NCBI GenBank assembly: GCA_006384855.1
Contig: VCJN01000028.1
Location: forward strand, 62,001 to 126,000
Direction: 5' to 3'
DNA from: Tetraselmis striata
Taxonomy: Eukaryota; Chlorophyta; Chlorodendrophyceae; Chlorodendrales; Chlorodendraceae
Length of the DNA: 64,000 bases
The notes beneath the pieces are model-generated. The model was given only the letters and a program-made list of their open reading frames with translations. It was not told where the DNA came from and ran no database searches. Below are positions 6,128 to 59,207 of the stretch, piece after piece. Within the stretch, counting starts at the first letter, position 1; each line of letters begins with the position of its first letter. A program made the translations under genes and the position numbers.

Positions 6128-8746
6128 ATGACATCCTCCGCGCCGGGCGGCGGCGGGCTGGGCGATTTCGTGTTCCACGCCCTGCGCTCCGGCGCCGCAC
6201 TGCCGCTCGCGGCCGTTGCTGGCGGGCTGGCCCAGCGGGCGCTGCTGCCGCGCATCACCGGCTACCTGCTCACGGGGCTGTTGGTGGGCCCCTACGCGCT
6301 AGGAATCGTGAGCGAGGAGGCCGTGAAGGCGCTCTGGCCGGTGGACTACCTCTGCCTAAGCGTTATCGCGGTCGCGGCGGGCAGCGAGCTGCAGTCCAGC
6401 GAGTTGCACCGGACGCGCGCGCAGGTGGGTGGTGCCATCTGGCGGTGCCCCCACAGGCCAGGCGGAGCCTCCCACGTATTCATTCTAACATAAAATGTTT
6501 GTTTTGCCTACCACGCCTACGCTTCCATACCTTATGGGCTCTCCCGTGGGGCAGCGCGCGTCCTCGATACAGCTGGATTGAAGCGAAGCGACCACTGGGC
6601 TATGTTGACTGCGCCTGGTGGGGTTTAAGCTACACTGCGAGAATGGCGAGGGGTAGCGCCACTGCTGCACCGCCCCCGCCCCCACCCCCCCCCCCCGCCG
6701 ACCCCCGACCCCCCCCCTCCCTGAGCAACCCCCCCCCCCCCATCCCCCCCCCCCCCCTCTCCGCCCTTTTCCCCACCCCCTCCCTGGCAGGTGATCTACA
6801 TCTGCGGCAGCATCTGCCTGGCTACCTACCTGCTGGTCTACCTCACGCTGCTCGCGGCGGCGCCGCTCCTCAGCGGGATGGCGGACTTCAGCTCGCTGCA
6901 GCTGCACGCCTTCTGCTCCCTCGCCGGCTGCCTCATGATGGCTCGCAGCCCCGCGTCCGCCATCGCGGTGCTCAAGGTGCGGCAGCGGCCTGTATCTCCC
7001 CGGCCAAATGCCTGGGTTGCTGGGCCGGATGGGCGCTGAGCCAGCGCCTCCATTCACTGCGCAGGAGACCGAGGCGCGCGGGCCCTTTACCAGCCTGGTC
7101 ATGGCGGTGGTGGTGGTCAAGGACGTGGTGGTCATCGCCGCGTTCGCGCTCAGCATGGAGGTGGCACGAGCGGTGTTCAGCAAGGCAAGCCCCCCCCCCC
7201 CCCCCCCCCAGCCCCAGTATATATACCCAGTACTACGATGCAGTACAAAGGGCATATATACTGTGTGTACATACAATGCAACAAATCATGAATACTCGTA
7301 CACCTCACCTCACCTCACCTCACCCCCTGCCGAATGCCATGAATGGCGGAATCGTAGCACCCCACAGAAAGGTGCCTCTTGAACTCCCTCCTCCAGCCTG
7401 GCCTCAAGTTGCACAGTGTGGCCCACCTCGCGGCTCTGACGGAGGCTGGCGCCCGCCCCCCCGACAGGACCCCGAGGCGGCGCTCACGCTAGCGGGGCTG
7501 CTGGAGCCGGTGCTTAGCCTGCTGGCCAGCCTGGCGATGGGCACCGCCGGCGCCGCGGTGGTGGGGCTGCTGCTGCGGCCCAAGCACGGCCTGCTGCCGG
7601 CGTACCTGCGCCCCGGCCTGGCCCGCAAGCTGCAGGCGGGCGTCATCCTGGGCCTCGTGGTCCTCATGTTTGGCACCGCGGACCTGCTGCAGGTGAGCGG
7701 GGCACCCAGGGCACCCAGGGGCACCCAGCACTGGGTGCCCCGCTCACCTGCAGCAGGTCCATCCAGCTCATCCGACCGCCATGTGTTTTAGAGCCCGGAG
7801 CCCACATCCATTTGCACTGTGCTGCCAAATCCGGGCGAGGCGGTTCGTGGAGTGGGCAGACGACCAGGGCAGGACGGACTCCCTCAATGAAGACACCGTA
7901 TTGAGCAAACTAATCGGATACGCGAATGCTCAGGGCTCTTAGCGCCCCGCCGCCGTTTATACCAGAGCCGCCATTTACGCCCAGACTAAAGGACATAACC
8001 CCTCCGTCGCACGAACGGATTCTGCTCTTCTGTGGCGATGGATTCAGGTGTCGCCTACCCGTGGGTGCGTTTGATTGTACCATCGCCGGTTGTTACGTTA
8101 ATGCCAGCCCCTGGCACTGCATTAAAGCAATGTGATTTTTTGACCCGCCAACGACAAACTCAATGTGCCGCCGTGAGCGAAACAATACCCCCCCCCCACC
8201 CACCCCCCTTCCCCTGGGCAGCAAAATCATACATGAAAACATAAGACTCTACAAGTATAAAGTCACACCGCATGAGTGTCTGACGTCCAGCGCCCCGCCC
8301 TGTGCTGGGGCAGTGCGAGCCGCTGCTGGCGTGCGTGGTGGTGGGCCTCATCGCGACCAACCGGCGCCACGGGAGCGCCGACGCCGAGAAGGAGGAGCTG
8401 CACCGCCTGCTGGGCGCCGTGATGCCCGTGACCAACGTGCCCTTCTTCATGCTGGCGGGCGCCAGCCTGCGGCTCAACGCGCTGGCCGGCACCCTGTGGC
8501 TGGGCGGCCTCGTGTACGGCGTGCGGCTGGGCGCCATCTGGGCTGGCTGCGCGTGGGGCGCCTGGATGGCGGGCTGTCCGGCGGAGCACCGCAAGCAGTT
8601 CTGGAAGAGCATGGTCACGCAGGCGGGGGTGGCCATGGGGCTCGCTAAGACCTGCGCGGTCCGCTTCCCAGGTAAGCCCCCCCCCCCCCCCCCCCCCTCC
8701 CACCCACCCACCCCCTCTTGCGACCGACCTTGATAAGTTGAAAATG

Positions 8747-8801
<55 letters not shown>

Positions 8802-11371: not shown

Positions 11372-11790
11372 GCTGGCTGCGGGGCCATTAGGGTAGGTTG
11401 CGTTTAGCAAGCAGTGGGGGACGCGGGCTCGCCGTCATGAGGAGGCTGGCTAGAGGATGGAAGCACCACAAGTACAGATTTGAAAATATGGATTGTCGCA
11501 AGTTAGGCCGCATTTAGTGTGTGGACGTCTTACTGCCCGGGCCGGCGGCACCGCGCGGAAGGCGGCAGGCTGAGGGCGCCCTAAACCCTAAAACCTAGGG
11601 ACGAACCGGCGCCCAGCTTGGGATCTCTATCTGGCGGTGCTTGGGCGCCATCACGCCACTTGACGAGGTTCGTCGGTCATCGACCAAGACTACGAGTGAG
11701 CGCAGCGCCCACAGCGAGCAGGAGGGTTACTGATGCTACTCGAGAGGAAGCGCGGTATCTGGTCAGCCCGGCCTGGGCACAGCAAAGTCT
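11372..11790. other. Spacer between convergent antiporter and gamma-tubulin genes
   Basis: 419 bp between two stop codons facing each other; both 3' UTRs must lie here and may overlap. Around 11578-11598 there are two CCCTAAA-type telomere-like words followed by a variant. No further gene is seen. Confidence 0.6.
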
Positions 11791-14700: not shown

Positions 14701-17212
14701 TCTAATATGATTAAGATGTATCTGTCAGACTTTTTCAGACAACTCCAAATCCTCAACACATTTTCGAATCTACTTCTATTGTATTCTCGCCATTCCATTT
14801 CTAATTGCCGGACTTCCATCCCAATAAACTGGTTGGGTTGCCATGCAGTGGCATCATCACCCAAATTCCTCTCACTTTCTTTGAATGCCCATAGCAAAAA
14901 ATGCCAGAGGATGTGATGATAGACAGGCCGTCAGTGTCCGGGTGGCGACGCGGTAATGACAACACTGCGAATAAGAACCTGCCCTGGCTGCCAGAGTCAA
15001 ATGTGGGTGACACTACAGCGGAACTATAGCGCATGTTCTTATACTAGGTTGCGTGCAAGCCCACTTCGAGGCTTACAGTACGGGCAGCTATAGGTGGGTC
15101 GGCACCCGTAGTGACTCCGTGTGGACGAGGGTACAAGCCAGCAGCAGAAGGGGGGATCAGAGACAAGGAGGGGGGGGGGGGGGGGGGGCACCATGATGTT
15201 CTTGGTCTGCAGCAGGCGGCGCATGACGTCCAGCACGCTGGTCTTCCGGATGGTGTGGTCTGCCTTCTCGCGGTCCAGCGTGAGCGGCGTGTAGCCGGTC
15301 ATCAGGAAATGGCACCTCGGCGTGGGCACCAGGCTGGCCACCAGCCCCACGAGGTCGTTGTTCATGTAGCCTGGTGCACGAGACCCTCACAGCCCGTCAG
15401 AACTCGGCCGGAAATCAGCCGAGGGGGAGTGGCGGGGCGTGGTGTTGGGGGAGATACTTGAGACGTACAACTCGCCATTTATTTGGGAGACAGCCTCTTG
15501 ACGGAAAAAGCGCTTCTTTCCTAACAAATTAACAGAGATCATTTGCGAGATACTGACTCGCTGCCCCTGGGAGGGAGATAAAAGGAAGCGTTTTGTCTGT
15601 TGGGCCTATCCTGCCCCATCGTGCCCGAGTTGCTCGCCCACACATGCACCTAGTACTTTCATGCAGTACGGGAAGATGTGGCTTTTATCTAAAAATCTAC
15701 CAAGCTATGATATGGCCGATATCAATCCGGGGTTTCATCCCTCCAACATGAATTTCCCCAGGAGTGGACACCCCGCCCTCGCAGTATATGTGCCCTGGGA
15801 GGGGGCGCACCGGGGTAGCGCAGGGTGGTGGTGGAGGCGGCCATGACGGTGGAGACGAGCGAGTTGGTCTGCGCAAAGGTGGGAGTCTCCAGGTGCAGCC
15901 GCTCCACGGCGATGCGGTTCAGCGCGGTGTTGTCCAGCACCACCACCGCGTCCGCGTTGAGCGTCAGCCGCTTGAGCGTCAGCAGGCTGTTGTACGGCTG
16001 CACCACCACGTCGCTCATCTCGTTCTGGTTGGGGAACACGCTGCCGTCGAGGCGGAGGAGCAGGGCACGGGGCCTCAGTCCCACTAGGCGCAGCAGTAGG
16101 AAGATACCGACACGATTGCCAAACACTGCCCCCCCACCCCCCCTCTTTTTGGTCTAGCAGCGCCATTCCGCTATGCGCACCTGTACGTCTGGATCAGCTT
16201 CTTGCCGTAGCGGTCGTTCAGCGCCTCCAGCATGTAGGAGCCCATGCCCGAGCCGGTGCCGCCCGCGATGGAGTGGCAAAGCACAAAGCCCTCCAGGCTG
16301 TCGCTACCCTCCGCCTCGCGGTCTGAACCCGGGCACGGAAACAAAGGGGTGAGTAGGGGGAAGAGTTGGTTGGCCCGCGCTCTCAGCACCCCCCTCCCGC
16401 CTTCCCCCCACATCCCGCTCTTGCCGTTTGCGGACTGCTGCGGCAGCACGCGCACCGATCATGTCGAGCAGATCCTCCTGCACGGACTCCGCCTGCGTGA
16501 AGCCACTGGCCCAGTTGTTGCCCGCGCCACCGCCGTGCTCGGCAATAAAGATGTTCTCGTGGTTGAACAGATTGCGGATGTCGCTATTCTGGATGGTGTT
16601 GATGACGCTGCGAGGCAGGCCGCAGGCTCAGCGCGTGGAAGTCTAGCTCCCCCACCCACTATCCACAACATCCTCTTCCTATATCATGTGCCACGCGAAT
16701 TGGACCAATGCCCCCCCCCCCCCCCCCTTTCTTCCCCTGAGCTCGCTCACCGAGGCTCTAGGTCCAGCAGCAGCGCGCGCGGGATGTAATGATCATCGTC
16801 GGCCTGGTAGAAGAACACATCCTTGCGGTCGCCTCCCTGGGAGAGCAGAGCACCGCGGAGGCTCAGAGAGAGCTCAGTCGTCGGCGTGGTGGGCAGTGAT
16901 CTACACTGCTGGAGTGACTGTGTTTGGCCAGCCGCGGGGCTGTGTGGGGGTGTGGCTGCTAAGTTGCTGGCCAAGGGCGTAAACAAGCTGAGGCGGGCGT
17001 CCATGCGGTCGAGATGGAAAGGAAAGGAGGGCGGGAGGTGGTGGTGGTTGAAGAAGGGGGGGGGGGGTAACCTGCGTGGCGAAGTCCTCCAGCATACCAT
17101 CCTTGCTGATGCCATGCTCCTGGCACAGCTGTGTGGGGGTGCGCAGCGGCGAAAACCGCGCCGGTTCAGGCCGGGCGTCAGTCGCTGCTGCGGTAGGGCT
17201 GGGCAGAGGAAG

Positions 17213-17243
<31 letters not shown>

Positions 17244-17342
17244 GGGGGGGGCGGGCAGGCCGCTGCCCACCTTTTTCCAAAACTCCGACCCAATCTGGTT
17301 GCCGCACTGCCCAACCTGCAGGGTGATGATCTCGCGCGGCAT
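11791..17342 (-). CDS. TUBG1: Gamma-tubulin (microtubule nucleation)
   Basis: Eleven exons: 17342-17271, 17128-17072, 16836-16751, 16607-16456, 16322-16181, 16040-15811, 15370-15192, 13938-13870, 13752-13657, 12933-12799 and 11949-11791. All joins keep phase, giving 458 aa, close to the usual 450-475. It starts [18 protein letters not shown]. The tubulin GTP-binding loop is [10 protein letters not shown]. Gamma-specific stretches include [80 protein letters not shown] and the tail [20 protein letters not shown]. It acts in gamma-tubulin ring complexes at basal bodies and spindle poles, binding alpha/beta-tubulin. Introns 1, 2 and 7 have sense poly-C right after the donor. Intron 10 holds a duplicated segment that repeats its own 5' splice site. 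Confidence 0.97.
12087..12803 (-). repeat. TUBG1: Tandem duplication (period 356 bp) inside gamma-tubulin intron 10
   Basis: Two nearly identical units, 12087-12440 and 12443-12803. The second (gene-proximal) unit contains the true exon-10 donor at 12799/12798. The first contains a copy of the same AAAGGTATGC context at about 12436, giving a pseudo-donor. A few SNPs and small indels separate the units. Confidence 0.95.
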
Positions 17343-21994: not shown

Positions 21995-22066
21995 ATCCCT
22001 TGTCCGCTCGGTAGAGCGGTCGTCTCGTATGCGAGAGCCGGGTTCGATTCCTGGCGTTGTATTATC
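21995..22066 (+). tRNA. tRNA-like sequence (tRNA relic or SINE head), not a sound tRNA
   Basis: Internal promoter-like boxes are present: an A-box-like GCTCGGTAGAGCGG at about 22005-22019 and a perfect B box GGTTCGATTCC at 22041-22051, inside a paired T arm. An anticodon-like loop CTCGTAT would read CGT (Thr). The D loop is too short and the acceptor stem does not pair, so this is a degenerate tRNA or tRNA-derived SINE. Repeat R3 starts about 70 bp downstream, which would suit a SINE body. Confidence 0.45.
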
Positions 22067-26110: not shown

Positions 26111-26381
26111 TGCCGTACTTTCCGCTGTATAAAAGCCCCCGTTGCGTGCAGTTAGGCGGTGCTGACGGAGCGCGGCGCGAGGGACGCAGGGACTGGCGTG
26201 CATCGCGCGCCCCGGCAGATGCCGACGGGACTTCTAATTGTTGCTGCCTCAATGGACACCCCATTTCCGTAGGGAAAAATACGTTATTTTGACCGAAAAT
26301 AAAAAAAATTCGGGGGGGGGAGGGGGGGGGGGGGGGGGCCTGGATGCCCCCCCCCCCCAGATCCCCCCCCCCCTTCGTCGT

Positions 26382-26448
26382 GGCCGGGCCTTCGGCCCGG
26401 CGTTGGGGGGGGGCGCCCCCCGCGCACTGCGCGGGGGGCGCCCCCCCC
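26382..26448. repeat. Two very stable G/C hairpins
   Basis: GGCCGGGCC-TTC-GGCCCGGC at about 26382-26402 is a compact stem. It is followed by a near-perfect palindrome of 20-nt arms (GGGCGCCCCCCGCGCA and its complement) around a single C at about 26406-26448. They sit directly at the 3' side of the minus-strand RPB2-like fragment. Confidence 0.85.
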
Positions 26449-27180: not shown

Positions 27181-27544
27181 CGGAGGACGGACGCCTAAAA
27201 ATCCGTGATAAAACCGTATTGTAACCGGTATCGATTCTCTCGTATTCCAGGCGATTTCGGACGCGGCTCTCCTTTTCCTCCGCTCAACCCAAGAGGTAGG
27301 GGAATATAGGTTTCGTATTGTATCGCTGTACAACCCAAAAAGCTCGCGATTGGTCGATTCGAGATGGTAAATCCTAATAACCGTAGGTTCACGAGTATCT
27401 CGAGGGACTCGGCGACATGGTGGTAGGTGTGTTTCAGCCTTAACCGCGTCGTGTTGTGGGCAGGCGATATTACCATGGCGGCATTATAAGAGTCATATTT
27501 TTCATAGTAGTGTATCATTTTACTTGGCGGCCCGGTTGGTCGGC

Positions 27545-27708
27545 GGGCTGGGATGCTGCGCGAGCCGGGCCCTTTCGCGCTCGGGCTTGGCGGCCTTGGC
27601 GGTCGGGGCGGGCTGGGATGCTGCGCGAGCCGGGCCCTTTCGCGCTCGGGCTTGGCGGCCTTGGCGGTCGGGGCGGGCTGGGATGCTGCACGAGCCGGGC
27701 CCTTTCGA
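27545..27708 (+). repeat. 65-bp minisatellite, 2.5 units
   Basis: Units start at 27545, 27610 and 27675 with GGGCTGGGATGCTGC. The first two are virtually identical and the third has one substitution and is cut short. The repeat makes matching open frames on both strands that are not genes. Confidence 0.95.
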
Positions 27709-39910: not shown

Positions 39911-40671
39911 CAAGCGGTCCACCACCTCGTACATATCGGGCAGGCAATACACCTCCAAAGGCAAGGGGAAGGGGTGTCAGGCACATTCAGTCACCAAATG
40001 CCCACAACAGCGCAGTGCATCGTTGGTTCTGTGGGTGGGTGGGGCATTGGGAGGAGGACGAGAGGGAGCGGGGGTGATGTCGATCATCTTGCCGTCGTCG
40101 AGCTTCATGAAGATGTGATGCATGGCTTCCAAGGCATGCGTGGCGGCATATCATGCGTCTTGGATCCGCGCTCCTGAAGGAAGGCATGAGCAGGGCGGCG
40201 GCTCGGTTAGGGCTCGCTTGAGGTTATGGTTTCGCAGGAGCGTTTGGCATGTCCCAGCCGGGCTGGCCTTCTTGGACATGCACGTAGCGATGCCGATGTT
40301 TCCCACCGCTACTGCAATGGTGTCACCTCACATCAATTTCATGCTGCGTGCATGTGCTGACTGACGACAAGGGCATGATTTGAAAAGGGGGGGGGGGCGT
40401 TCGTGGCGCGCACGCACCTAGAAGTACTTGCCGCATACAAGGCATCATGCGTAAACGTTGACGGGGCCTTGGCTGACGGAGCAGCACTTTTTGAAGTCGA
40501 AGTCCATGTTCTGACACGAGATGGTGTCCAGGTAGGGGCAGTCTGCGCCCTTATACGCACCGCCGGCCCGCCGCAGAGCCGCACCACCGGGCGCTCCTCC
40601 TCCTCCTCCCCATCATCCGCCTCGGCCGCCGCCGCGCAGTTGGGGCCACCCCCTTCGGTGCTGGCCATGAC
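39911..40671 (-). pseudogene. Truncated intron-bearing copy of the USP39 gene 5' region
   Basis: Matches 58388-59150 of the intact gene in the same orientation: part of exon 3, intron 2, exon 2, intron 1 including its shortened poly-C tract, and most of exon 1. It is a DNA-level segmental copy, not a retrocopy, because introns are kept. It lacks the first 20 or so codons and everything after mid-exon 3. Frameshifts (for example two extra bases in the GTGCGTATAAGG stretch) and a stop before CLVCGKYF show that it is dead. The edges are abrupt: 39911 on the left and about 40671 on the right. Confidence 0.92.
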
Positions 40672-41299: not shown

Positions 41300-43612
41300 A
41301 GTGCCCCTTGCAGCCCCAAGAACACGGCTGGTCGGCGCCAACCGGCCACCACTGTATTCCGGCCCCCGGCACCCGCGCGGGTTGGCGCCATCATGCTGCC
41401 CTTGCGCCATGTGCCTCCCGGTTGCCTCCGCGGCCTAAGGACCGCCGCTGTACCTCGTGGTTCAATGGCCTTTGCAGCCCCGGACACGCAATTGGTCGAC
41501 GCCATCCGGCCGCCGGCACTACACCCTGTGCCCCGGCCGTTTCCGCGGCATGCACGCGGACCTGGTCGGCACCAACTGGCCGTCACTGTACCATATGCCG
41601 CGGTCTTTTCCGCGGCCCGGTCATGCAGCTTGTCGACGCGGTCAAGCCGTCCCTGCACCATGCGCCCCGGTCGCCTCCGCGGCCTGCGCACGCAAATGGT
41701 CGGCGCCAGCGGACCGTCATTGCACCATATGCCGCGGTCTTTTCCGCGGCCCGGTCACGCAGCTTGTCGGCGCCGTCAAGCCGTCCCTGCACCATGCGCC
41801 CCGGTCGCCTCCGCGGCATGCGCACGCAAATGGTCGGCGCCAGCGGACCGTCATTGCACCATGTACCCCAGTCGCTTCCGCAGCCGGCGCATGCAGCTGG
41901 TCGGCGCCAACGGGCCGCCATTGCATCATGTCGCCTCCGAGGCCCGGGCACGCAGATGATCGGCGCCCACGGGCCGCCGCGGCACGCTATGCCTCGGTTG
42001 CTGTCGCAATAACCTCGGGGACGCAGTTGTTCGGCGCCATCATGCCGCCACCGCACCCTGCGCCTCGGTCATTTCTGCAGCGTCACTGCACCATGTGCCC
42101 TGGTCGCCTCCGCGGCCCAAGCACGCAGATGGTTGGCGACGTCAGGCCATCCGCTGCACCAGGGGCCCTGGTTGCTTCCGCGACCTGTGCACGCGGATAG
42201 GTTGCGCCAACGGGCCACCACTGCACCATGAGCCTCGGTCGCTTCCGCGGCCCGCGTGCGCAGCTACGCGGCGTCAACATACCGTCACTGCACCCTATGC
42301 CCTGGTCGCCTCCGCGGCCCAAGCACGCAACTGATCGGCGCCGTCGGGCAATCGCATGCACCCCCGTGCCCCGGTCGCCTCCGCGACATGCGCACGAAGT
42401 TGGTCGGCGCCAACGGGCCGCCACTGCACCTTGCGCCTCGGTCATTTCCCGACCCGCGCACGCAGCTGGTCGCTCGGCATCAACGGGCCGTCACTGAACC
42501 ACGTGCCTTGGTCGCGTCCGAGGCCCAGGCACGCAGCCGGTGGGCGCCACGGTGCCGCCACTGCATCCTATGCCATGATCGCTTCCGCGGCCCAAGCACG
42601 CAGCTGGTCGGTGTCGTCGGGCCATCCCCTGCACCTTGATGGGCCCCGGTCGCCTCCGCGACCTGCGCACGCAGCTTGTCGGTGCCAACGGGCCGCCACT
42701 ACAACCTGTGCCCCGGTCGCCTCCGCGCCCCGCGCACGCAGTTGGTCGGCGCCCAACTCGCCGCCTCTGCACAACAGGCATCGGTTGCTTTCGCAGCGCA
42801 AGACACGCACCTTGGCGGCACCAATGGGCCGCTGTTGCACGCTGTGATTTAATTTCTATCGCAACCTTGGGCACGCAGTTGGCCAACGCCATCATGCCGC
42901 CCCTGCGCCATGAACCGCAGTCGCCTCCGCGGCCTACGAACGCAGCGGGTCGGAGTCAACGGGCCGTCATTGCACCCTGCGCCTCGGTCGCTTCCGCGGC
43001 ATGCGTACGCAGCTGGTCGGCGCAAACGGGCCGTCACTGCACGTTGTGCCTCACTTGCTATCGCAACCTCGGGCACGCAGTTTGTCAGCGCCATAATGCC
43101 GCCCCTGCGCCATGTACCCAAGCCGCCTCCGCGGCCTACGTTCGCAGCGGGTCGGAGTCAACGGGCCGTCATTGCATCATGTTTCCCGGTCGCCTCCGCG
43201 GCCCGGGAACGCAACTGATCGGCGCCAACGGGCCGCCGCTGCACGCTGTGCCTCATTTGCTTTTGACCGTCATTGCACCCTGCGCCTCGGTCGCTTCCGC
43301 GGCCTGCGCACGCAGCTGGTCGGCGCAAACGGGCCGTCATTGCACCCTGTGCCATGGTCGCTTCCGCGGCCCATGCACGCAGCTCGTCGGCGCCGTCAAA
43401 CCGTCCATGCACCATTTGCCACGGTCGCCTCCTCAGATTGGACACGCGGCTGGCCGACCCCATCATGCCGCCACCGCATCCTGCGCCCCAGCTGTCTACA
43501 CGGCATGGGCACGTAGCAGATCGGCGCCAACGGTCCGCCGCCGCACAACGTACCCATGCTGCTTTCTCACCCCCCCGGACACTCGGTTGGTCGACGCCAT
43601 CAAGCCGTCGCT
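41300..43612 (+). repeat. 67-bp satellite array, about 34 degenerate units
   Basis: Well-registered units start at 41598, 41665, 41732, 41799 and 41866, each exactly 67 bp apart. Core words are CGGTCGCCTCCGCGGCC, CGCACGCAGCTGGTCGGCGCC and CGGGCCG..ACTGCACCATG. Between 41598 and 41865 two unit types alternate, giving a 134-bp higher-order repeat. Because 67 is not a multiple of 3 and stops are rare, long open frames (up to 393 codons) run through the array in several frames on both strands; these are not taken as genes. The array ends against a 30-nt C tract at 43647. Confidence 0.95.
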
Positions 43613-43644
43613 GCGTGGAGCTATCCACAGACTACATCGTCTAT

Positions 43645-43677
<33 letters not shown>

Positions 43678-44564: not shown

Positions 44565-47500
44565 ATGAGTCTCCCACACTTTTTGCAGCCAAGTGGGCAA
44601 TCTGGCAGGGCCGCTGCAGCTGCGAAGGATGTGGGCTGCACCGACGTTAGTTCTCGAAGGTCCTCGGAGACTGGACTCGCTACGGGTGCTCATGCTGCAC
44701 GGGGCAAGGGGCGGCGCAGCGCTGAAGTCCCCGCCACACGCGAGTTTCAGCGGATGGGTAAAAAGGATGATGTGTGCAAGTTTTTGCAGACACAGGACGA
44801 CGGCAAGGTACGAGTGTGGGTATTGCCCCCCCCCCCCCCCCCCCCCCCCCCCCGCGGTGTGCAACTACAAGCTACCGCGTGGTCGCCTGGAGCTGATAGC
44901 ATCCAGAAGTTTGGGCCATGTCTGCTTCATTTCATCCCGCGAAGCCGGCCCCGCCCGGCCAGACGGCGCGTCGCCCGGCGGGAGGGCTACTCGTACCGTA
45001 CTGGTACCGCCTGTACTCCGCCGGTTTTTTTCGCCCCCGGGACAAGAGGACTACCAATCCTTACTACCCTAGAGGGTACTGGTGTGAATTTCGAAAGGGC
45101 CATCCATACTCACGAATCCACCCACCTACCGCTAAGAGCAGCAGTACCAAAAGATCCTTACCGGCAATCCAGCGCAAGGTACTTGTATTTACATGAGCCA
45201 GCTGCTCAAGGCGAACAGGAAACCACCCGAAAAGGCAATTACTTCTATACAGGTGGTCGCTACTGCTGGCAACTAGCTAGTAAAACCCTTGCAGCGTCCC
45301 TGTGGCGATGGCCTTTAATCATTATTAGCCGGCAGCTACGCAGCGCTAATTTGTCGTGTGTACCTGCTGTCGCTAATTTAGCATTCTACCAGTATTCTAC
45401 CCTCGAACACACTGACTCTGATCCGTACGCGCATCACTCATCCATCCCGCCTCATGCGGGATGCGGGCCGCATCGGGCCGCGGGAGGCGCGGATTGCTGT
45501 TGATCTTTTCTTCTTTACATCAGGGCTTTAATAATTGATAAATGCGCACTACAAACATAACTAACAGCAACTATGAAAGGTTGCCAGGAAAAGAGAGACG
45601 TAAGCCTGAAACCATAAGTCTTCATCTGTTAGTACCAATTTTAGTGGTATAGGTGAATTTGCTACTGCCCGTTTTGTAATTCACACCAGTATTGGTACCA
45701 GGTAGCGACTACGAGTACTTGCAACAAGCATCAACCCCGCCATCCATATGCGCTGCGCTGGCGCGGCGCGGCTATAGCGACTACCGGTATCCCCACACGA
45801 GTTGGAAGCGTGAAAAATAAGTACCCCGTACGAGTACCCCGCTTTTACGCGGCTTGTGGCGAACAAGGAGGTAGCTTTTGATAGCCGCGCTATATCAAAA
45901 GCGCGGATGAGGATCTGTGGATGCCACACGGCGGCGAGTACGTGTAGTCGCTACAGACTAGCGACGGTATCATAGAAAAAATTAAATCATGACACGAATA
46001 TCCACATTCCATCGTCCGCCCCGCCTCAAACGCACGCTCTGCTGCTAGTTTGCCACGGTAAGATATGACACCGTTTGTTATTGGTCACATAGTGGTATTC
46101 GTGATATCACACTTATAATTGGTCAGATCATATCGTCATATATAGTGCGTGACATCCGCGAATCTACCCACACCGGGTATCGATCCGGGTGGACTGTGCG
46201 CTTTAATACTGGAAGGAGGTGACTTCTCTTGGACACTAGCCGCGCTCTGTCAAAAGCGCGGAGGATCCGTGGGTGTCAGTACCTTGTTAAAAAAATTATG
46301 AATATCGTACAGAAACTAAAGCGGCATCCGGGCGCTAGCATCGTCATAGCTATCAGAGCGCTTTACACTGAACTATATTTGAAATACCAAGATCACGACG
46401 ACACGTGCAACTAGCGGGGGCCCGCCGGCTGTTGCGCAGTACGGTCATTTCTCATACCCATGCACGATATGGTGACGTATCTCGACACCGGATGGCAAGG
46501 TAAGATGGTACGGTACCGGTCCGAGCCGCCAGTGACGATGATAAGAGACCTGCTGCCCCGGGCATGGATCGAAACACCGACTTATGACCCATGGTCACTC
46601 GCTCTACCAATGAGCGCCCCAGTCAGCTTTCGTTCCCGGCCAGGACTGACAGGTCCGACCCACCATCCATGGAACTTTAGAAAACAAGATGTTTTTTTTT
46701 TGTAGTGAACCTTTGTACATGATACAATGCAGAACAGTCCGGGTAAGCTTCAGACATGTGCGAGTACATACCGAAATCGACACGGATATCCGCACCGAAG
46801 GAAAGGGTCCGAAACACCCTTTAGAGGCAACCAAATTAGACGCACGTACTCATGTACGTTGCTGTGGTGTAAATATTATGTGTTAAGGCCGCGCCCCATA
46901 ACCTTTATTTTGACTACTTTTACTTTAGACCCTTATTTAACAATAATTCGTTCTCAGCCGACATGTTTCGCATTTTGGCTGCATGAAGCAGCCTAGGTGA
47001 GACTTATCATATAGAAGTATCCTTGTGCACTTGCTGTTAAGCACATATGAGACAGGTAATGAGTGTCATTTAGCACTACTAGTCCCCCAGCACAATGGGT
47101 GAACTATATCGAGCATGATGTCACCGTTGGCATGCAGTCATGGTTTGGCGCGCCTTCCGTTGCTGACTCGCTCTACGTGTGTGTATCCACTGGCAGCATC
47201 GCCACAAACCTGCCGAGCGGCATAGCACGGGCAGCATTCAGGTGTCTCCCAACAAGGGTGCCGGCCAAGCAGCGCCCTCCGCCATGGCCCGGCAGCGCCA
47301 GAAGCGCGTGCAGAATATGGCTACTACCTCGGCCTCGTCCATACCACAGCTGCCTCAAATTGGAAGCAATCAAGCAACGAGCCAACTCGCGCAAAAATCA
47401 CGCAAACTCAAGCCGGTGGGTGTCTTATGCTGCCCCCCCCCCCCCCCTGGTCACTGCATTCCCCGGGCTGTACCGAAGAACACAAGTACTTTGATGCGCA

Positions 47501-50500
47501 TCTAAAGTCAGATTGTGTTTTTGATTGCGCAGTGAAACTGTTTAGCATGCTAACACCGTAATACGTAATTGGGTTTGCGGGTCGCCTACATTCAAAATCT
47601 CGTACTCGTGGTGAATTCGAATACAATTTGAGACCGATATTGTTTTCTTTCTCTTGAGGGGGTAAAAAACAAAAACTCTATAGCAGTTACAAAGTGTGGT
47701 TGCAGTACTCTGCATACGGAGGCGCTTGTTGAGCCTTCGCCCGCCAAGCCACTCACTGTGCCAAGTGAACACCGGCGCTCCTCCCCCAGGAAGGACAGCT
47801 CACCATAGTGGGGAATATTGTGAAGGTGGGGGACAGTCACACACCCATTCCTGTCGCGGACATCAAGCGCTTGAAGCAGAAGTTTGACGGCCTGGACACG
47901 AAGCAATGTGAGGACTGAACCCGTTGTGCGCTATTGAGCGCCTGCATGTCTGCGCTGCGCCACGATTGCCAGCCTCCAACACGAGGTGCTGCCGCTCGCG
48001 GCTGTGTTTCCTGTCTCTATTTGCATGTGTTGAGTGGCGGTGCGCGCCGTTGTTATGCCATTTCTCAGGCGGAGAGATCAGTTGGGATCGGTTGGATGCT
48101 CTCAAGGGGGTGCGGCGGCATCCCCCCCCCCCCCCCCCCCCCCCGCCCCACCCCCCCACGCCTCCCCCCCCCCCTCCCCCCCCCCCCCCCCCCGGCCTCT
48201 TCCCCCTTGTTTCCGTGCTGTTGCGGTTTTGCTTATCCTGCGGGGTGTACGGAGGACGTATGTGGGGTTTTGTAGTGTGTAACATGACAAACAGAATACA
48301 TCCCACAATCTAGCAATGGTACACATACTAACTACTCAAATACTAAAAAAACTAACACCAAGATACTACAACAAGACACTTAACTAAAAGACAACTACTG
48401 CCAGTCAACATGAAACATTTTAGTGGCCCCTTGATGCATAGCAATTAAAACAACCAAAACCTTGCAAAACACAGTTGTGCAGTCAGATAACATAACAATG
48501 AAATTCCAGAACGATATCCAGACGAACATGTTATGGTTTACAATATTTACGGAATCGTAATTTATTCAAAGAGTATGTATAAACTGTACAAAATACAATA
48601 GAACGACACACAATCAAACCACACCGCACCCCTAAATATTAAAATATCCCAATCAAGGCAGAATGCTGAGTTGGGCCAGGGGCGATCGGCCGGGGAGAGG
48701 GGGCGACCCGGCGGTGCACAGGAGCTGACTGCCCGTGGTGGTGCGCTGGCGTAGGGGGCTGGCTTTCCGGGCGCCTGGTCGCAGAAGCTCCTGGAAAGCA
48801 AGCGGCTGCAGAAATTCAAGCGGCGGGGCAGCGTCTTCTCCCGCATAGACCAGCGGTTGTTCAACTTCAAGGTGCGCCCCTACCCCCACCTGATGGGTCT
48901 GCTACGTGTTGCTGTTTTATGGTCTATTGACACTCCAACTTGTGGAGGAAGAACATTCCACATTAATCTGAAACTATACCATACAAACACAAACGGTCTG
49001 CGCATGATTAACGATTTCGCGCGTGCGAAGACGAAATAATTAAAACAAAGAATAAAATAAAGTCAAAATAAGGCACGAATACAGCCGACATGAATTAGGT
49101 CAAACTGATTCATTAGTTTTTGGCCCTGCCGACCGTATTTAATAATTCTACGGTAATATAGAATATGATATATAGCACGGAATTTCCGAGTCAGCGATGC
49201 AAACCCGATCCTGACTTAATCGCTACTATGCGACCGATCATTTTTACGAGCCCAATTAAGTGTGTAGTCCCGCGTAGGTGTCAAAAACTTAAAATGGCGG
49301 GGCCTACCCTGGCCGTGTTTCGCCACCCTTATAGCGTTTTCAAAATACCTGCTGTAAATTAGCGGATATTCTGCTCGTGGTAGTATTCATAATAATATAT
49401 TGCTGAATTTTCAACGTAACGAACTACTACGTATAAGTAAGCTGACTGTATACGTGTACCAGTACGCTTTTATGTCGCGTTAAACCCTAAACCGTAGTAT
49501 GCGTCCCGGCAGTCCAGTACCAGTACGAGTACTGCTGTACTCGTACTAGTGAGGCGGAGCAGTATATAGCGAGTATAGCATATTTTAAATAGTATGCTAC
49601 TGGTACCGATCGGGCCGTATGGGTATTATACCGTTTTCCGGTACCCGTACGTTGTGTGTGAATTACAAACGGACAGTAAAATATACCAGCAATTTACATG
49701 TAATTTACCGGGAAGTTTCTAGTGATACCAGTACTTGGAGGGGCTGCGACGACACAATACGGAAATGTGCAATATAGTCGCTAATAAAGTAATAATACGA
49801 AATAGAAATAGTTGACGCAATTTTATCCTCTAGTGCGTCGGTCCGCATTCCTGGAAAGCTATCTAGTTTAAAAAAACAATATATATGTAGACTTTTTCTG
49901 GAAAATGGGCAATAGTACACCATCAAAGAACTACTTGGTGCTTTCCGAAATCGATTCGCAATACGATTATACGACTAAAATATACCTGTCAGATTTCTTT
50001 CAAGAAAATGGCAAAACATTTTCCTCTTCCATATCCATTTCTAACTGCCGCCCTTATTGCATCGTAATGGACTTGAGAGTTTAAAGTACTCACGGGCTTG
50101 CGGGATGTGCACCTGACTGCGGCACCATTGCGGCCGACGCTGCCTTGGGGACCGCCGGGGGCTCAGCAGAGGCTGCGCTGCTTCCACCGCAGGATGTGCT
50201 CCGGTTGGTCTATGCCGACGTCGCCGAGGCGGACATCCTTCTTCTGGATGACCTGGCAAAGAACCTGATTGGTATTAAAACTGTGAGCCCGGAGCCTCGG
50301 CCCGCCTGCATCCCGCAAAGCCTGTCACGTATGAGCTCGGCCGCAACTCGCCGAGCGTACGGCTGCGCATGAGCGAGTGGGCATGGCAGCTCTTCCTCCG
50401 TCACTCCTCCCTGAACCCAGGCAGCCGCTGTGCCCCCATCGCCGTTCCGCAGAAAGTGACCAATTACCCAAAGGCGCGCCGCGAGGCTGCGTACAAAGTG

Positions 50501-51229
50501 TACCTCAGGACGTGCCTGGACGGGCGCGCGGCGTACCTGGGCGACCTGGAGGACCTGCTCTTCACCCGCTTCCCGGATTTTCCGCAGTACCAGGCCCTGA
50601 AGATGCTGAACGACGCCACGCTAAACAGGCTCTACGAGGACGAGCCCATCGGCATGGAGGTGCGCAGGAAATCATGCCGACTGGGCTCTCATGCCTCCCA
50701 GAATACGTGCTGTCGGGTGGGAAGCAACCCTGGCTACCCTGGCGCTACCACGAGGGACATGCGCCCTCGTCGTTAGACAGTCAAGCCACAGTCACAACCA
50801 TGTCTCAGTTGCACTCCCCTGATGTAATTAAAACTCCCCTGTTATGGGTCGCTGGCAGCTAATTCAACTGCTGGGGCTGGGGAGAGGAGGGGTAATAGCC
50901 CGCTAATTCCCAAGTGTGGTTCCCAAGTACTGACTGGCGACTTGCAGGAGACTGGATATCCCTACCGTGAGTTTTGAGCTCTAAACGTGTGCCATTTTAT
51001 ACTCAGACTCACCGACATTTGGGAAACTCGCCGCATTTCGCGTAGTTTTGGGGGCTGTTGTTAAGCTAACCCCTAAGACCCCCTGACGAATCAAATTGGG
51101 ATAATGTTGAGTTGCAAGTAGTCCTGCAGCCTGACCTGAAAATGTCAATGCTGTCCCCTCCAGGAGTTTTGCGTTTGGTATATGACGCTAGAGGACCAGG
51201 AGTCTGGCAAAGCTGCGCCGGGAGGCAAA
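44565..51229 (+). CDS. Protein with degenerate EF-hands, multi-exon (3' end not settled)
   Basis: Proposed exons, all phase-compatible: 44565-44807 (first, weakest), 47242-47415, 47790-47907, 48069-48109, 48785-48871, 50193-50282, 50453-50659 and 51164-51229; more may follow. Exon joins build EF-hand-like pairs. One is VADIKRLKQKFDGLDTKQCG joined to EISWDRLDALKG, with a loop resembling D-x-x-x-x-G-x-I-S but lacking acidic ligands. Next come RIDQRLFNFK joined to DVLRLVYADVAEAD, and finally LNRLYEDEPIGME joined to EFCVWYMTLED, the last matching the 'I-x-x-EEF' exit helix of EF-hands. Most calcium ligands are absent, so structural rather than calcium-sensing use is likely. A coding start at ATG 47284 is an alternative, which would make the 44.6-kb exon separate. 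Three introns have sense poly-C just after the donor. Confidence 0.55.
45187..45245 (+). repeat. Repeat family R3, copy 4 (weak)
   Basis: TTACATGAGCCAGC followed by AAGGCGAACAGGAAACCACC, a diverged version of the R3 core, within the first large intron of the EF-hand gene. Just upstream, at about 45025, lies the CGCCCCCGGGACA start of a partial R1 copy. Confidence 0.45.
45869..45925 (+). repeat. Dispersed repeat family R5, copy 2
   Basis: AGCTTTTGATAGCCGCGC block, then ATCAAAAGCGCGG and CTGTGGATGCC. The two halves form a short hairpin. Confidence 0.7.
46218..46280 (+). repeat. Dispersed repeat family R5, copy 3
   Basis: TAGCCGCGCTCTGTCAAAAG then CGCGGAGGATCCGTGGGTG, diverged at its left end. 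It lies 350 bp after copy 2. Confidence 0.65.
46545..46625 (-). tRNA. tRNA-like sequence (relic or SINE head)
   Basis: The minus strand has a good A-box-like GCGCTCATTGGTAGAGCGAG (about 46620-46601) and a weaker B-box-like GTGTTTCGATCCATG (about 46576-46562). Arm pairing is poor in the anticodon and acceptor stems, so function as a tRNA is unlikely. It sits in an intron of the EF-hand gene. Confidence 0.4.
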
Positions 51230-53414: not shown

Positions 53415-56400
53415 TCACTTTTGCAGCTCGTACACCTGCACCGGGGCAGCATGGCGCGGTGAGTGGCGATCTCGTCCATGGGAGACATATGGCATATGCG
53501 CCGAGGGAGCGGCGGCCGCGCGCCCACCTGCAGGTACGTCTCCGACAGTGCCACCATCTGCGGCAGGACCTCCACCAGGCTCAGGTCCTGCACCTCGTAC
53601 CTGCGTAACCGGGTACACACGGCAGAGCTAGCGTCAGATGACCACAATTAATTGAAACACGGCAGTACACCGGAGACACTGCTTAGACAACAACAACAGC
53701 AACAACCGTACTTGCAGTATCATAGCGCATCACTATGCCTCACTCAACATACCTCAGACACATGCAGGTAACGTGCAAACATGCCGTCATCAAATGTCGG
53801 CTCGCGAAGCGCTCACGGAAGTCAAACGATATATACATTATAGAGGGAGTTTTCATGTATGCTAAATATGTCAGGTACAGTAGTAATCCAAACTTTAGCC
53901 ACCTCACCCTCTCTTCTAGATTTGTAACTATGATGAGGGTGTCTGTTGTAAAGTCTTGTAAAGAGCCGTTACAAGGTGGGGAGGGTGTGTGTGTGTATAC
54001 AGGGGGGGGGGGGGGGGGCGGGCGCACCAGAGGTCGTCCGCGGCGCGGTGGATGTGGCATCGGTACACGCCCTCCCCAGCCTTGCCGTCATGGCACACGT
54101 TTGCGATGAGGTTGTACTTGGAGGGCGGCGGCGCGCCGCCCGGCTGGGTTGGCGGGATGGGCACCGACTCGCGCACCTCCCAGTTCTTGACCGGAAAGTT
54201 GACGATGGTGGGGTTCTTCTCGATGAAGAAGTTGTTCTTCGAGAAGCGCTGCAAGGGGGAGGAGGAGGAGGGGGGGGGGGGGGGGGGGATCACCACACCG
54301 TAAAAACAATGGCAGGAACCCAACGCACACTGTTTGCCCGAAGAACGAGTTTCTGTCCATTTGTGACATGGCATGGGATGTGTCGCAATCAGTAGCCAAA
54401 GTTGGAGACTAATTTACATATGAAGGCCAGAGTTAAGTTCATCATGGAGTGTTATTTTCTGAAGAGACAACATACGTTGTCAAAGTATTCAGAGCAGTCT
54501 TGCATTCGCTCTTTTATGATGCTGTCCAAAAGGACATTCTGCCGAAAGCGCGTGTTGTCAGCGGGGGTGCACCTTCATGTGGAGCACCAAGTACGGCGGC
54601 AGGCGGAGCACGGAGAAGCGGCGGCGCCCCATCTTGACGGTGTCCTCCACTGTGGCGCCGTCGTACTTGTGCATGATGACCGCGAGCGGCACCTGCGGGA
54701 TGGCGTTGCGCTCCATGTTGTCCTGGAACAGCGGCGTCGCGGGCAGGTCCAGCCCCAGCAGTAGGAACGGCACCTGCAAGGGCGCATGCCGCCGCTCAGC
54801 AGGCGTTGCCATACCCCAAGCCCTGACCCAAAGCCCTCGTTACACCACCGTCCCTTTCACACGATTCTGGATGACGTAACAGTGATGGTTAAGGGATTCA
54901 TTGGTGTAGGGTTACATGATTTAGGGTTTCATAGCTCCAGAGCGGAGACCTCTGGGGTTTGCGACCCATGTCAAATAACCTAACTATAACCTAATCATGG
55001 GGAAAAGTGGGCGGACACACAGATGTATCCTGAAATCTCGGAAATCCTCGCAATTTTAGGTATTTCTTAAAACCCAGCCGTGTTTGGAACGTTGGCAAGG
55101 TTCCCCAAAAGGGTTTCTAAACCAGGGTTTTATCAGGATTAACCGGGGCTTTTGATTTCATCAGCAGTTAATGCAACCAAGACATTCCGTCCGCAACAAT
55201 CATCACACGCGACCGCGATGTTCACGTCAACATTGGCATGGACTTCCAAGCGAGGCACTCCACATTTTAGTGCGCGCCGATTTTGCTGAACATATAGCTA
55301 CCCTCTTTGTCACCCAGAAACTACCACGGCTGTCTGATTAGGGTACTAAGAGCACTGCAGCGAATAAGACCTTGCCCTACCGTACCAGAGGTCAAATGCC
55401 GACGAAACTATCGTTGCACTGTAGCTAATGGTCCTATGGCTTGCATGCGGGCCCAATGTGAGGCTTGTAATGCGGGTTATCACAGGTGCGCCGGTACCCG
55501 TGTTGTTGAACCTTTTGATCAATCCTGTGGTACTATGTGGTCACTCAAACCCTTAGATACCCTAGGGTTATTGTCGAGGACGGTAGATGCCAGTAATACT
55601 CGTACAGACATCGGCGGGGATCAGTGCCGGAATAATGCCAGCGGGCGGCACACAAGCATGTCGACGTCTGCTAGCGCATGTATACTTGTTTGGAGAAGTA
55701 ACACGGTATCCCTAGCAAACACTAACCCTAACAGCCATCTGTATCAAACCATGCCCCTGCTCGTTCCACAACTATTCCGCCACTATGCGTCCACTGTCGG
55801 AGCAGGTCAAGCGGCCTCGCTGATCCCACGTCTAGGGGTTCAGGCTGCTCCACAGAACGAGCACGCGCACAGACCTTGCGAGTGGCAGCCCCCCCCCCCC
55901 CCCCCCCCCCCCCCGGGGATGCGGCTTGATCTGATCTGATCCGATTTTCATCGCATCCAATCCCGGGTCTAATGATCGATGCGTCTGATACAGCGCCTCC
56001 AACAGAGCAACACCATGATATGACCTCGATGCGCCCGATGCACCCAATCATGACATTCGGTCGATTCTTTATGCGAGTGGAACGTTTGTGGTTCCCCCCT
56101 GGCCGCCGCCGCACCTCCTCCACCACGTCCTCCGCCGCGGCCTTGGCCTTCCCGGTGCCGGCCTCCGTCGTGACCCGCAGCTTGCCCTGGAAGCACTTGG
56201 TGATGATAGAGGGTTTTTTCCGCTTGCCGCCGGTGAGGTCCAGGTGCAGCGCGTTGAGCAGCCAGCTGCTGAAGTCGATGGGGTCCGACTGAGAGAGGGG
56301 GCGCGTGCGATGACTGGTTGGATCGCTTTGACCAAAAACAACTGCCAACCCATTCACTTCTTCGCCAACTGCATGAGAAACCTTTTTAAAACAGAACGCC

Positions 56401-58205
56401 AATATTTGTCTTTAACGTGGTACAAATCCTCAAGCTACACTACACTTTAGATGGGTGTTGAAGGATATGAAATAAACACAACAAAATCAATCTTGTTTAC
56501 TTAGCTTCATTTTGAACTGTATTCCATGATTGTCATAAATGAGACGCGCACGTAAGCAACAGCTGGACCCGATTTATACACGCAAGTAAGCCACGCAAGC
56601 AAATCGGCAGAACTGCTAGCCACACTATTTACCATCGAGCATTCATTTATCAATTCCCGGGGGCCGGGGAAGGGCGGGAGGGGGGGGGGGGGGGGGGAGC
56701 ACCTGCGCCTCGATCAGGAAGCGCTTCTGGCTGGCTCGGATGACCTGCTGCATGAACTCATGCGGGCTGACCTGTGGGGGGGGAGTCAGGCAAGTGCACC
56801 GGGCGCCGTTTACAGGTGGGTCACTGTGCGGCACGGGTTTGTCCGGTGTGTTTGCCTCACGATACGAATGGGCATAAGGGGAGGTTGTGACCACCCTTGG
56901 GGCTACAGCCAGGTACCCAATTGGGACCCAGTGATGCCCTTTAGCTACCCCAAGTCCGCCGAGCTGGACGAGTTTAGCCATACTTTGCTGTGACTACCGT
57001 AGACTGAACATCGTTCCGGGGGCCTAAAACAAATCTGCGTCGCTAATTCCCTGTGGTATTTGTGGTTAATCCTTGCTTGTGTCACCGGTTAATTGCGGTT
57101 CTCCCTCTAAAGGGGCGGGGGAGGGGACAAATATCTGCTGTCAGACTGTTTCTGTGTGACGTTACGCACGCCGATACCTCTATCGCAACCCATAATCTAG
57201 TCATGGATTCAGGATGTCATGCTACGTAGCCCATCGGAGCAGCAGCTCTAGGCCCTTGCCTGTATTTGTCTATCAATCTCCGATCTGTGTCGGATTGGGC
57301 GGGTTGTTATTCGCAGTGTTCTCAGTACCGCGGCGGAGCCCGCGGCTACAGGGCGGCTGGCACCGGCAATCTACTGCATTGGGTTGAGATGGGATGGGAC
57401 AAGGCGCGACGGCAACGGGGTTCAGGTGGTAAAGGGCTGTAGCTGAAGCCGCCGAATGGCTCGCGATGACGGGATTGGGGTGCGAAACGAATGTCTCCCC
57501 AGCACGACTGCAAGGTTGATGGGTCGGCGTGATGGACACGTTGTGTTCTCATCAGAATGAAGGCAGATGGGCACAGCTATTCATTCATCTTGCTGTGTAT
57601 TTGGGACGCTGTTTTGATATAGAAAAAATAACAGTAGTTGTTGTTTTCTGTTGTATTGGAGCGCCTTCGATTTGTATTTGTGTACTCCGCATTGGCATTG
57701 CGAGAAGGGGGGGGGGGGGGGGGGGAGGGGGGTAGGCAGACCTGGCCCTTGAAGGCACGCGGGTTCCAGATCTTGCGGATCAGCTCCCCGAACGCCTTCA
57801 CCAGCCTGCTGCTGCAGTCCTGGTAGTTGCTCGCCATCAGGAAAAAGTCGCGCACGCGGGGCACGCGCGCCAGCATCTGCCCCCCACCCCCATCACAAAC
57901 ACACAGACCATCGCCGTCAGCACATGCCTTGTGTGCACAAAGCACGCCACCAGCACGTGAGGGTGCTGATCAAGGAGGCTGCATGGTGGCGGCCTCAGGC
58001 TGCGGGCCGGCTACCTGGATGACCACATTGGCGTAGTCGTTTTGTTTCATGTTGTTCAGCCCCACCAGCCCTGGCATGTAGTCGTGCCCGTCCACAGCCC
58101 TCGCCCACTGCGGGCAGGCAGGGGGAGTCGATCAAGCAGTGAGCACCAGGCACCAGGGGGGTCGCCGGGGGAGGGGGGTGGGGGGGCAATCGGATGGTGG
58201 TGGTG

Positions 58206-58236
<31 letters not shown>

Positions 58237-59207
58237 GGGAACTCTGTGTTGACGGGCCAAGGGGGGTCGGAGGTTTGGGAAAGGGAGAAGAGGGTGAGGG
58301 GGCAGCACCTTGTGGTCCTTCTCCAGGGTGGCCAGCTCCTGGGGCGTGAGCACCGGGTTGAGCACGTGGCGGATGTCGCCAAACGTGCGGTCCACCACCT
58401 CGTACATATCGGGCAGGCAGTACACCTCCAGAGGCAGGGGGGAGGGGGGTGTCAGGCACAGGAAGTCACCTGATGCCCACAGCCGCGCAGTGCACTGTTG
58501 GTTATGCTGCGTGGGTGGGGCATTGGGAGGAGGAGAGGGAGCGGGGGTGATGCCGATCACCTTGCCATCGTCGAGCTTCATGAAGATGTGATGCCTGGCC
58601 TCCAGGGCATGCGTGTACGCGTGCGTCTTGGGCCCGCGCCCCTGAAGGAAGGCAGGAGCGGGGCGGCTCGGTTAGGGCTCGCCCTGGTTTCGCAGGAGCG
58701 TTTGGCACATCCCAGCCGGGCTGGCCTCCTACGACATGGATGTTGCGATGCCGCTGTTTCCCACCGCTACTGCTATGGTGTCAGCTCACAACAATTTCCC
58801 GGCAGCTGCTGCTGTGTGCAGATGCTGACGAGAAGGGCATGATTTCAAGGGGGGGGGGGGGGGCGTTCGTGGCGCGCACGCACTTGGAAGTACTTGCCGC
58901 AGACAAGGCAGGCGTAAACGTTGACGGGGCTAAGGCTGACGGAGCAGCACTTCTCGAAGTCGAAGTCCAGGTTCTGGCGCGAGATGGTGTCCAGGTAGGG
59001 GCAGTCTGCGCCCTTACGCACCGCCGGCCCGCCGCAGCGCCGCACCACCGGGCGCTCCTCCTCCTCCTCCTCCTCCTCCCCCTCCCCATCAACCGCCGTC
59101 GCGGGCGGCGCCGCCGCGCCGTTGGGGCCACCCCCCTCGGTGCTGGCCGCCGCCGCAGCCTCCTCCTCTGGCAACTTCTCCTCTGCTTCCTCCCTCGGAC
59201 GCTTCAT
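53415..59207 (-). CDS. USP39: USP39/Sad1, U4/U6.U5 tri-snRNP-associated inactive ubiquitin hydrolase
   Basis: Eleven exons: 59207-58884, 58641-58561, 58425-58309, 58107-58015, 57876-57742, 56771-56703, 56288-56115, 54773-54573, 54248-54028, 53600-53528 and 53435-53415. Every phase fits, giving 502 aa. After an acidic, disordered start (poly-Glu), a ZnF-UBP domain (about residues 68-150) reads CPYLDTISRQNLDFDFEKCC, YACLVCGKYFQGRG, THAYTHALEARHH and YCLPDMYEVVD. The USP-fold domain starts GLVGLNNMKQNDYANVVIQ, where the catalytic Cys of active USPs is Asp. Later blocks are FRQ-free SSWLLNALHLDL, YLVLHMKRFSKNNFF and YNLIANVCHDG, then LPQMVALSETYLQ near the end. The known family role is assembly of the tri-snRNP for pre-mRNA splicing in the nucleus. 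Six introns contain sense poly-C tracts. Confidence 0.96.

Follow-up and report, generated by a model that had tools for sequence, protein, structure and literature searches.

Sense-strand poly-C runs just past 5′ splice sites in a Tetraselmis striata window and in donors beyond it

The window considered here is the whole stretch of DNA that was analyzed, 64,000 nucleotides (nt) corresponding to positions 62,001-126,000 on the forward strand of contig VCJN01000028.1 in the Tetraselmis striata assembly GCA_006384855.1. It contains intron-bearing genes in which pure runs of C on the sense strand follow the 5′ splice site, or donor, by a few bases to about 20. Gamma-tubulin and USP39 are identified by matches in the PDB, the latter to tri-snRNP protein 2, and in both cases the alignment also backs the exon junctions. 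An antiporter is identified by a match to the Pfam family Na_H_Exchanger, with junctions placed solely by the reading frame and GT/AG. G+C content at third codon positions is 0.93 over 1178 codons of the named window genes. A preliminary description of this DNA had reported the runs in four genes, and the three identities just given stand, whereas the fourth, an "EF-hand" gene, found no Pfam match at an E value of 0.05. The sense-strand poly-C beside donors is real and extends past the window: when donors were anchored on two protein domains across the assembly (224.1 Mb in 2903 contigs), about 1 intron in 5 was found to open with a long C run a few bases past the splice point.

For counting, a run was defined as pure C or G of length at least 10, oriented by the sense strand and starting no more than 30 nt past the donor. 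Exon ends of gamma-tubulin, USP39, and the antiporter were taken from the translations, which gave, together with a single donor at position 44808, a curated set of 21 window donors (gamma-tubulin 7, USP39 8, antiporter 5); USP39 intron 7 was excluded for its ambiguous donor. A sense C run is present at 10 of the 21 and a sense G run at one, or 9 and 1 among 20 donors when 44808 is left out. On the minus strand, gamma-tubulin intron 1 has the donor GTGGG followed by 25 C (C25) from intron position +20 (17227-17270), intron 2 has GTTAC with C12 from +5 (17056-17071), and intron 7 has GTGC with C19 from +4 (15170-15191). USP39, also on the minus strand, contributes intron 1 (GTGCG, C15 from +21, 58849-58883), intron 5 (GTCTG, C19 from +17, 57707-57741), intron 6 (GTGCT, C18 from +6, 56680-56702), and intron 9 (GTGCG, C17 from +10, 54002-54027). 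The plus-strand antiporter has C20 from +6 after the donor GCAAG of intron 3 (7185-7209) and C21 from +6 after the GTAAG of intron 5 (8672-8697). The tenth run, C28 from +19, follows the probable plus-strand donor GTACG at 44808-44853 in the putative "EF-hand" gene. Two irregular cases noted earlier are also as described: gamma-tubulin intron 3 (GTGAG) has a sense G17 run from +24 (16711-16750, minus strand), and in USP39 intron 3 (GTGCT) the C20 run begins only at +70 (58220-58308, minus strand). All of these places agree with the preliminary description to about one base. Its two remaining "EF-hand" donors, both on the plus strand, likewise have their C runs, and all three donors of this gene model were assigned by inspection alone: a possible GTGGG with C15 from +18 (47416-47447) and a possible GTGCG with C23 from +13 and two more C runs, of 11 and 18 (48110-48193).

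Other simple repeats occur in the same genes. The antiporter has a sense-strand C27 at 6055-6081, 46 nt ahead of its start codon, and in its intron 5 a perfect TG repeat (8748-8798) lies about 50 nt past the C21 run. By eye, the arrangement of a C run followed by a CA repeat recurs in gamma-tubulin intron 1, in USP39 introns 3 and 9, and at L058, L070, and L088 outside the window.

Donors beyond the window were anchored on exons matching the kinesin motor domain (PF00225, 164 matches) and the CCT chaperonin domain (PF00118, 44 matches). Every fetched match that stopped short of the domain end was included, which produced 108 donors from 84 of the 164 kinesin and 24 of the 44 CCT matches, the unused matches being domain-end, unlisted, or unfetched exons. 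A fixed rule based on the reading frame, the exon end, and the first intron bases set each donor position. Two matches were excluded for sharing an exon with the next match (C134:9062 and C1502:2483, given as contig and position), and the exclusions as domain-end exons comprise C2134:18640, which has a C run, C2399:132467, which has one at +9, and others; C1922:204198 and C1492:117242, both run-less, belong to the set. An earlier version with 107 donors (22 C, 2 G) was used for the folding, clustering, and donor-word tests described below. As a side check, a crude codon-based exon finder, which misplaces some exon ends, was applied to random stretches of the genome.

A C run begins within 30 nt at 21 of the 108 outside donors and a G run at 2 (binomial p 6.6 × 10−5 for C against G). 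The chance rate measured from random positions in 17 genome stretches (157 kb) is 0.0080, so that 0.87 of 108 would be expected where 21 were seen (p 6 × 10−23). All 21 C runs begin between intron positions +4 and +20. Two of them are doubtful, since L067 may be a stop codon and not a donor and L052 is a near-copy of L041; without both, the counts are 19 C and 2 G of 106. Ten haplotype-like copies, counted apart, give 2 C and 0 G. Introns with runs are not clustered by gene in the 107-donor set (4 same-gene pairs vs 3.3 by permutation, P 0.39), and genes predicted by the exon finder vary: at L012 each of the 7 predicted donors is followed by a C run no farther than 56 nt in, while at L011 no C run lies within 30 nt of any of the 11, two of which have a G run. 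Sense-G donors make up 3 of the 129 window and outside donors (L027, L028, and the window donor at 16750), with runs at +14 to +24; the donor call for L028 is uncertain.

The excess is confined to the beginning of the intron. Binned by distance, the donors with a C run and those with a G run amount to 21 and 2 at 0-30 nt, 3 and 2 at 31-60, 3 and 0 at 61-90, 3 and 3 at 91-120, 1 and 1 at 121-150, and 2 and 1 at 151-200. Over 31-200 nt the totals, which are small, are 10 C and 7 G (Fisher p 0.02 against 21 and 2 near the donor). This near balance farther into the intron ties the sense-C bias to the donor. An i-motif, G-quadruplex, or R-loop effect had been suggested for the runs, and nothing found here requires one; a generic transcription effect should spread along the intron, and the counts beyond 30 nt, small as they are, do not show such a spread. 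Genome-wide word counts point the same way for AGGTGCG, a word containing GTGCG, the commonest donor start among the anchored donors. Within about 20 nt past this word, C12 occurs at 1042 places and G12 at 321, compared to 171 C and 156 G for the reversed word on the mirrored side. The enrichment and sense bias at donors whose genome-wide absence would have spoken against the observation are seen with this word, and they are weak with two others considered below.

How the runs arise is indicated by their lengths and by their variation between copies. The 157 kb of random stretches contains C/G runs of lengths 8, 9, 10, and 11 at 8, 4, 6, and 3 places, yet 75 runs of length at least 12 and 44 of at least 18, while A/T runs of at least 8 number only 5 (lengths 8-10). 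Intron starts are likewise bimodal in the length of their longest C run, with 42, 35, 6, 1, 4, and 20 introns in the classes 0-3, 4-5, 6-7, 8-9, 10-14, and 15 or more. Eight near-identical contig pairs were noted (C134/C2472, C1332/C1583, C476/C1576, C845/C861, C332/C2788, C424/C2634, C964/C12, and C1546/C2482; four were aligned), which suggests that the assembly contains both haplotypes or recent duplicates. Runs that correspond in position between near-identical copies have lengths of 31 and 28, 19 and 21, and 18 and 26, and the two copies of one CCT intron read C4TC6 and C25 about 60 nt in. The bimodal lengths and the differences between copies fit a threshold beyond which C tracts lengthen fast. 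Of the transcription-linked expansion proposed in the preliminary description, the expansion is therefore supported, while the strand and position of the runs implicate the donor.

These same properties feed a live alternative, to which we give limited credence, in which mutation is the whole explanation: poly-C/G grows from seeds and piles up where it is tolerated, sense C is favored in transcribed DNA owing to the harm done by G-rich RNA or G on the non-template strand, and the runs have no splicing role. In its favor are the abundance of long runs across the sample, their bimodal lengths and differences between copies, the lack of any tie to donor strength (see below), and the finding that 32 of the 43 C/G runs of at least 10 in the window lie farther than 30 nt from any curated donor. 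Caenorhabditis elegans genes share the sense bias (84 to 47), and the authors of that work, in the accessible part of their report, oppose a gene-specific function (PMC2211496). According to the same part of that report, however, the place of the C. elegans tracts within introns is unbiased, whereas here the runs start at +4 to +20 and C and G stand at 10 and 7 from 31 to 200 nt. That the runs are an artefact of sequencing or assembly, for instance poly-G calls from two-colour chemistry, is very improbable. Homopolymers are prone to error, but the runs occupy the same place with different lengths in near-identical copies on different contigs, and they track the sense strand at donors and one intron position.

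The remaining difficulty for a purely mutational account comes from introns that have no run, as these have a C-rich zone at the same place that run expansion does not explain. Among 80 outside donors whose first 60 nt are free of C and G runs, C makes up 0.446 of positions +7 to +16 and then declines to 0.385 (+17 to +26), 0.343 (+27 to +36), 0.307 (+37 to +46), and 0.291 (+47 to +60). In the same introns G lies between 0.240 and 0.277 and T between 0.174 and 0.237, so T is not raised. The difference C minus G is 0.124 at +7 to +46 vs −0.003 at +121 to +190 (78 paired run-less introns, p 1.9 × 10−6), and the trinucleotide counts near and far from the donor are 181 vs 63 for CCC, 33 vs 97 for GGG, and 36 vs 38 for TTT. 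Run-less donors of the window (n = 10) have C at 0.45 over +7 to +26, and run-less exon-finder donors (n = 18) have 0.389. When all 108 outside donors are taken, pyrimidine tracts of at least 10 occur within +4 to +60 at 38 (37 C-dominant, 1 mixed, 0 T-dominant), compared to 9 of 106 within +101 to +157. The C-rich zone is general, and the donor-side runs are its most extreme form.

Such a zone could also be what is left after avoidance, with G runs, GT decoys, and other harmful words purged beside the donor and C remaining without any reader. The scarcity of GGG near donors is what this account predicts; A and T are also lower there, and the observed/expected ratio of GT is 0.83 near and 0.89 far. 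That GT deficit is small, however, and G slips only to about 0.25 from about 0.29, whereas C climbs from about 0.28 to 0.45; under avoidance alone, A and T would be free to rise. We regard avoidance as distinctly unlikely. The insertion of introner-like elements that supply a 5′ C tract is hardly credible. It would account for runs at one end of the intron, but when the first 200 nt of 107 introns, with C/G runs masked, were compared all-against-all, only 15 of 5671 pairs matched, and of these 2 fall in the near-copy contig pair C1576/C476, 1 is a match of 22 nt at the start of two run-less introns, and 12 lie further in. The introns with runs are thus not a family united by common sequence, and introner insertion was rejected on this basis.

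The explanation that we favor, and to which we give about even credence, is that the C-rich zone corresponds, in a C-built form, to the pyrimidine tract that many eukaryotes have past their 5′ splice sites, and that the instability of poly-C has enlarged it, with the splicing function inferred. Its first two parts are seen in the sample: a C-specific sense zone at about +7 to +36 adjoins the 5′ splice site, and C/G runs have a long state, from 12 to about 30, that varies between near-identical copies. A short seed within the C-rich zone would then grow into a pure run, the direction of change being the conjectural element, until about one-fifth of introns open with sense poly-C. Retention of the zone itself would be due to a protein with affinity for C-rich RNA, which would help the U1 small nuclear ribonucleoprotein (snRNP) to hold the donor. 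Candidates for this factor would be a three-KH protein like PCBP or hnRNP K, or a protein like TIA or RBP45 with a C-binding RRM. Multi-KH genes of the PCBP-like kind whose presence had been proposed as a check are predicted from domain matches at two loci, with three KH_1 matches inside a 0.8-kb stretch at C1064:10582-11365 and another three at C4:62600-64869. The pure runs would be tolerated or mildly useful extremes of the zone and no separate signal. A bolder version, tentative and rather doubtful, is that this lineage rebuilt its donor-side splicing helper from C, so that a C-reading factor sits beside U1 on most introns and runs of 15-30 nt are tolerated as the strongest form of its site. 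If so, variation in run length between haplotypes would tune splicing.

Three specific ways in which the runs might act at the donor were rejected or gained no support. Compensation for weak donors would leave a poorer U1 match where a run is present, and the match is equal with and without a run (p 0.80). Improved accessibility of the donor through RNA folding was sought at 106 donors, where the actual sequence gave 0.328, far segments 0.331, and a C-G swap 0.353. Pairing with an altered U1 gains no support either, as the 5′ end is the usual one in both U1 small nuclear RNA genes that were located. A separate pattern was seen in the donors themselves: among the 108, GTRAG is commoner after exon ends other than AG (10 of 41) than after AG (4 of 67), with p 0.008, which is the kind of trade-off between the two sides of the donor that is expected from U1 pairing. 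For the splicing signal suggested in the preliminary description, place, strand, and the C zone of run-less introns speak in its favor, the link to weak donors does not hold, and the function itself is the inferred part.

Several further observations weigh against a C-type donor tract. The anchored exon ends on which the counts depend rest on homology rather than on RNA, and the bias is weaker among the exon-finder donors from random stretches, where a C run is present at 7 of 58 and a G run at 2, or at 4 and 2 of 28 under a stricter filter. The equality of U1 match was obtained by comparing the 15 donors whose first run lies beyond +7 with 87 run-less donors. In the folding test, swapping C to G opened the 22 run donors of the 107-donor set more, from 0.323 to 0.387 (p 0.03). 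Among word counts, AGGTRAG has only a weak bias (571 C, reversed control 115, vs 486 G, control 237; 87 C runs lie on its exon side), although it is a poor proxy for donors because just 4 of the 107 anchored donors carry it. AGGT is also weakly biased (15311 C, control 7180, vs 13634 G, control 13242), with gaps of 9 or less at 48 C and 27 G places among the first 100 listed of each. Such counts depend on context, as the control word GARTGGA precedes C12 942 times.

Another objection comes from the other end of the intron. Upstream of 48 anchored acceptors C is raised too, to 0.38 at −14 to −4 and 0.37 at −24 to −14, and T is not; in USP39 a sense C19 at 54270-54288 (minus strand) sits about 21 nt upstream of an acceptor, in the position of a pyrimidine tract. 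C-richness is therefore not specific to donors and may partly be an effect of a GC-rich genome, which weakens the favored explanation. Since C is raised and T is not at both ends, both pyrimidine zones are of the C type. Long runs are distributed differently: none of the 48 anchored acceptors has a C or G run ending within 30 nt upstream, and 91-150 nt upstream a C run is seen at 6 of 46 and a G run at 1.

The window holds further repeats and one partial gene copy. A diverged second copy of the USP39 exon 1/intron 1 junction lies at about 40321-40559 on the minus strand, with a C11 run 20 nt past the copied donor (40387-40417) where the gene itself has C15. A large minisatellite with a 67-bp period and related periods occupies 41512-43432, and a tandem repeat of 65 bp (2.6 copies, 99% matched) lies at 27542-27707. 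Facing G and C runs at 26322-26448 could form a hairpin, as far as can be seen in the sequence alone.

Among known systems, the closest relative is the pyrimidine tract past the 5′ splice site, which, in the accessible part of a survey of 22 eukaryotes, is described for almost all of them, in about 20-40% of introns with a center mostly at +15 to +25, and is tied to TIA proteins and U1C (PMC2766253). The yeast and plant Nam8/RBP45 proteins are described as reading U-rich sequence at this place (PMC9813592, in the part available), and TIA-1 RRM3 and TIAR are reported to bind C-rich RNA (PMC4284772, likewise in part). Like the tracts of TIA-1/TIAR, Nam8, and RBP45/UBP1, the tracts described here occupy the first 20-40 nt or so of the intron on the same strand. 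Their place is similar, with runs starting at +4 to +20 and a zone at +7 to +36, a comparison made by starts and not by tract centers, and so is their share, 38 of 108 against 20-40%, under a tract definition that differs from the one in the paper. They differ in being made of C and not U (0 of the 38 tracts are T-dominant), in including pure homopolymers of 10-31, and, unlike most metazoan TIA-type tracts, in being no commoner at weak donors (p 0.80). U-richness and a link to weak donors were both looked for and neither was seen, which places the feature outside the TIA/U type; judged from sequence, it may nevertheless work like a donor-side pyrimidine tract. A more limited parallel is the C-rich intronic enhancer near a 5′ splice site of chicken beta-tropomyosin that is bound by hnRNP K, as cited in the available part of PMC2481429. 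PCBP/hnRNP K enhancers share the C-rich RNA beside the donor, and multi-KH genes are predicted in this genome from domain matches, but those enhancers are short motifs in single introns, whereas here long runs occur sample-wide.

Repeats that gather at intron ends or prefer one strand are also on record. In the accessible text of PMC3887541, plant and green algal intron repeats gather toward intron ends, most of all in Chlamydomonas and Volvox, where they are mainly GT/AC at both ends, and in monocots and bryophytes the leading intron motifs are C and CT; donor-side poly-C goes unreported in that text. Intron repeats in Daphnia are described as strand-specific and T-rich on the sense strand (PMC3152781, in the part available). 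The T. striata runs resemble the plant and algal repeats in gathering at an intron end and those of Daphnia in their sense-strand bias, and unlike the GT/AC repeats of Chlamydomonas and Volvox, the long C runs favor the donor, with 0 within 30 nt of the 48 acceptors. No prior report of donor-side poly-C was found in the open-access literature, a scope outside which most subscription papers fall. T. striata offers a natural system that combines strong patterning with high mutability in the sequence beside the 5′ splice site, and because near-identical copies, probably haplotypes, differ in the length or presence of a run, the role of a donor-side tract is testable by allele-specific splicing.

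As homopolymers, finally, the runs are most like the poly-G/poly-C tracts of Caenorhabditis, which are maintained by DOG-1 (PMC2211496, in its accessible part). The same text counts 396 G/C tracts of at least 18 in about 100 Mb of C. elegans, with sense C favored in genes and no preferred place in introns. Both systems have long, pure, noncoding G/C tracts far above chance with a sense-C preference in genes. The T. striata tracts differ in being denser, with 44 of at least 18 in 157 kb, a density of homopolymeric C well above the nematode case, and in their position, with 21 of 108 donors having a run within 30 nt and then 3 in each of the next three 30-nt bins.

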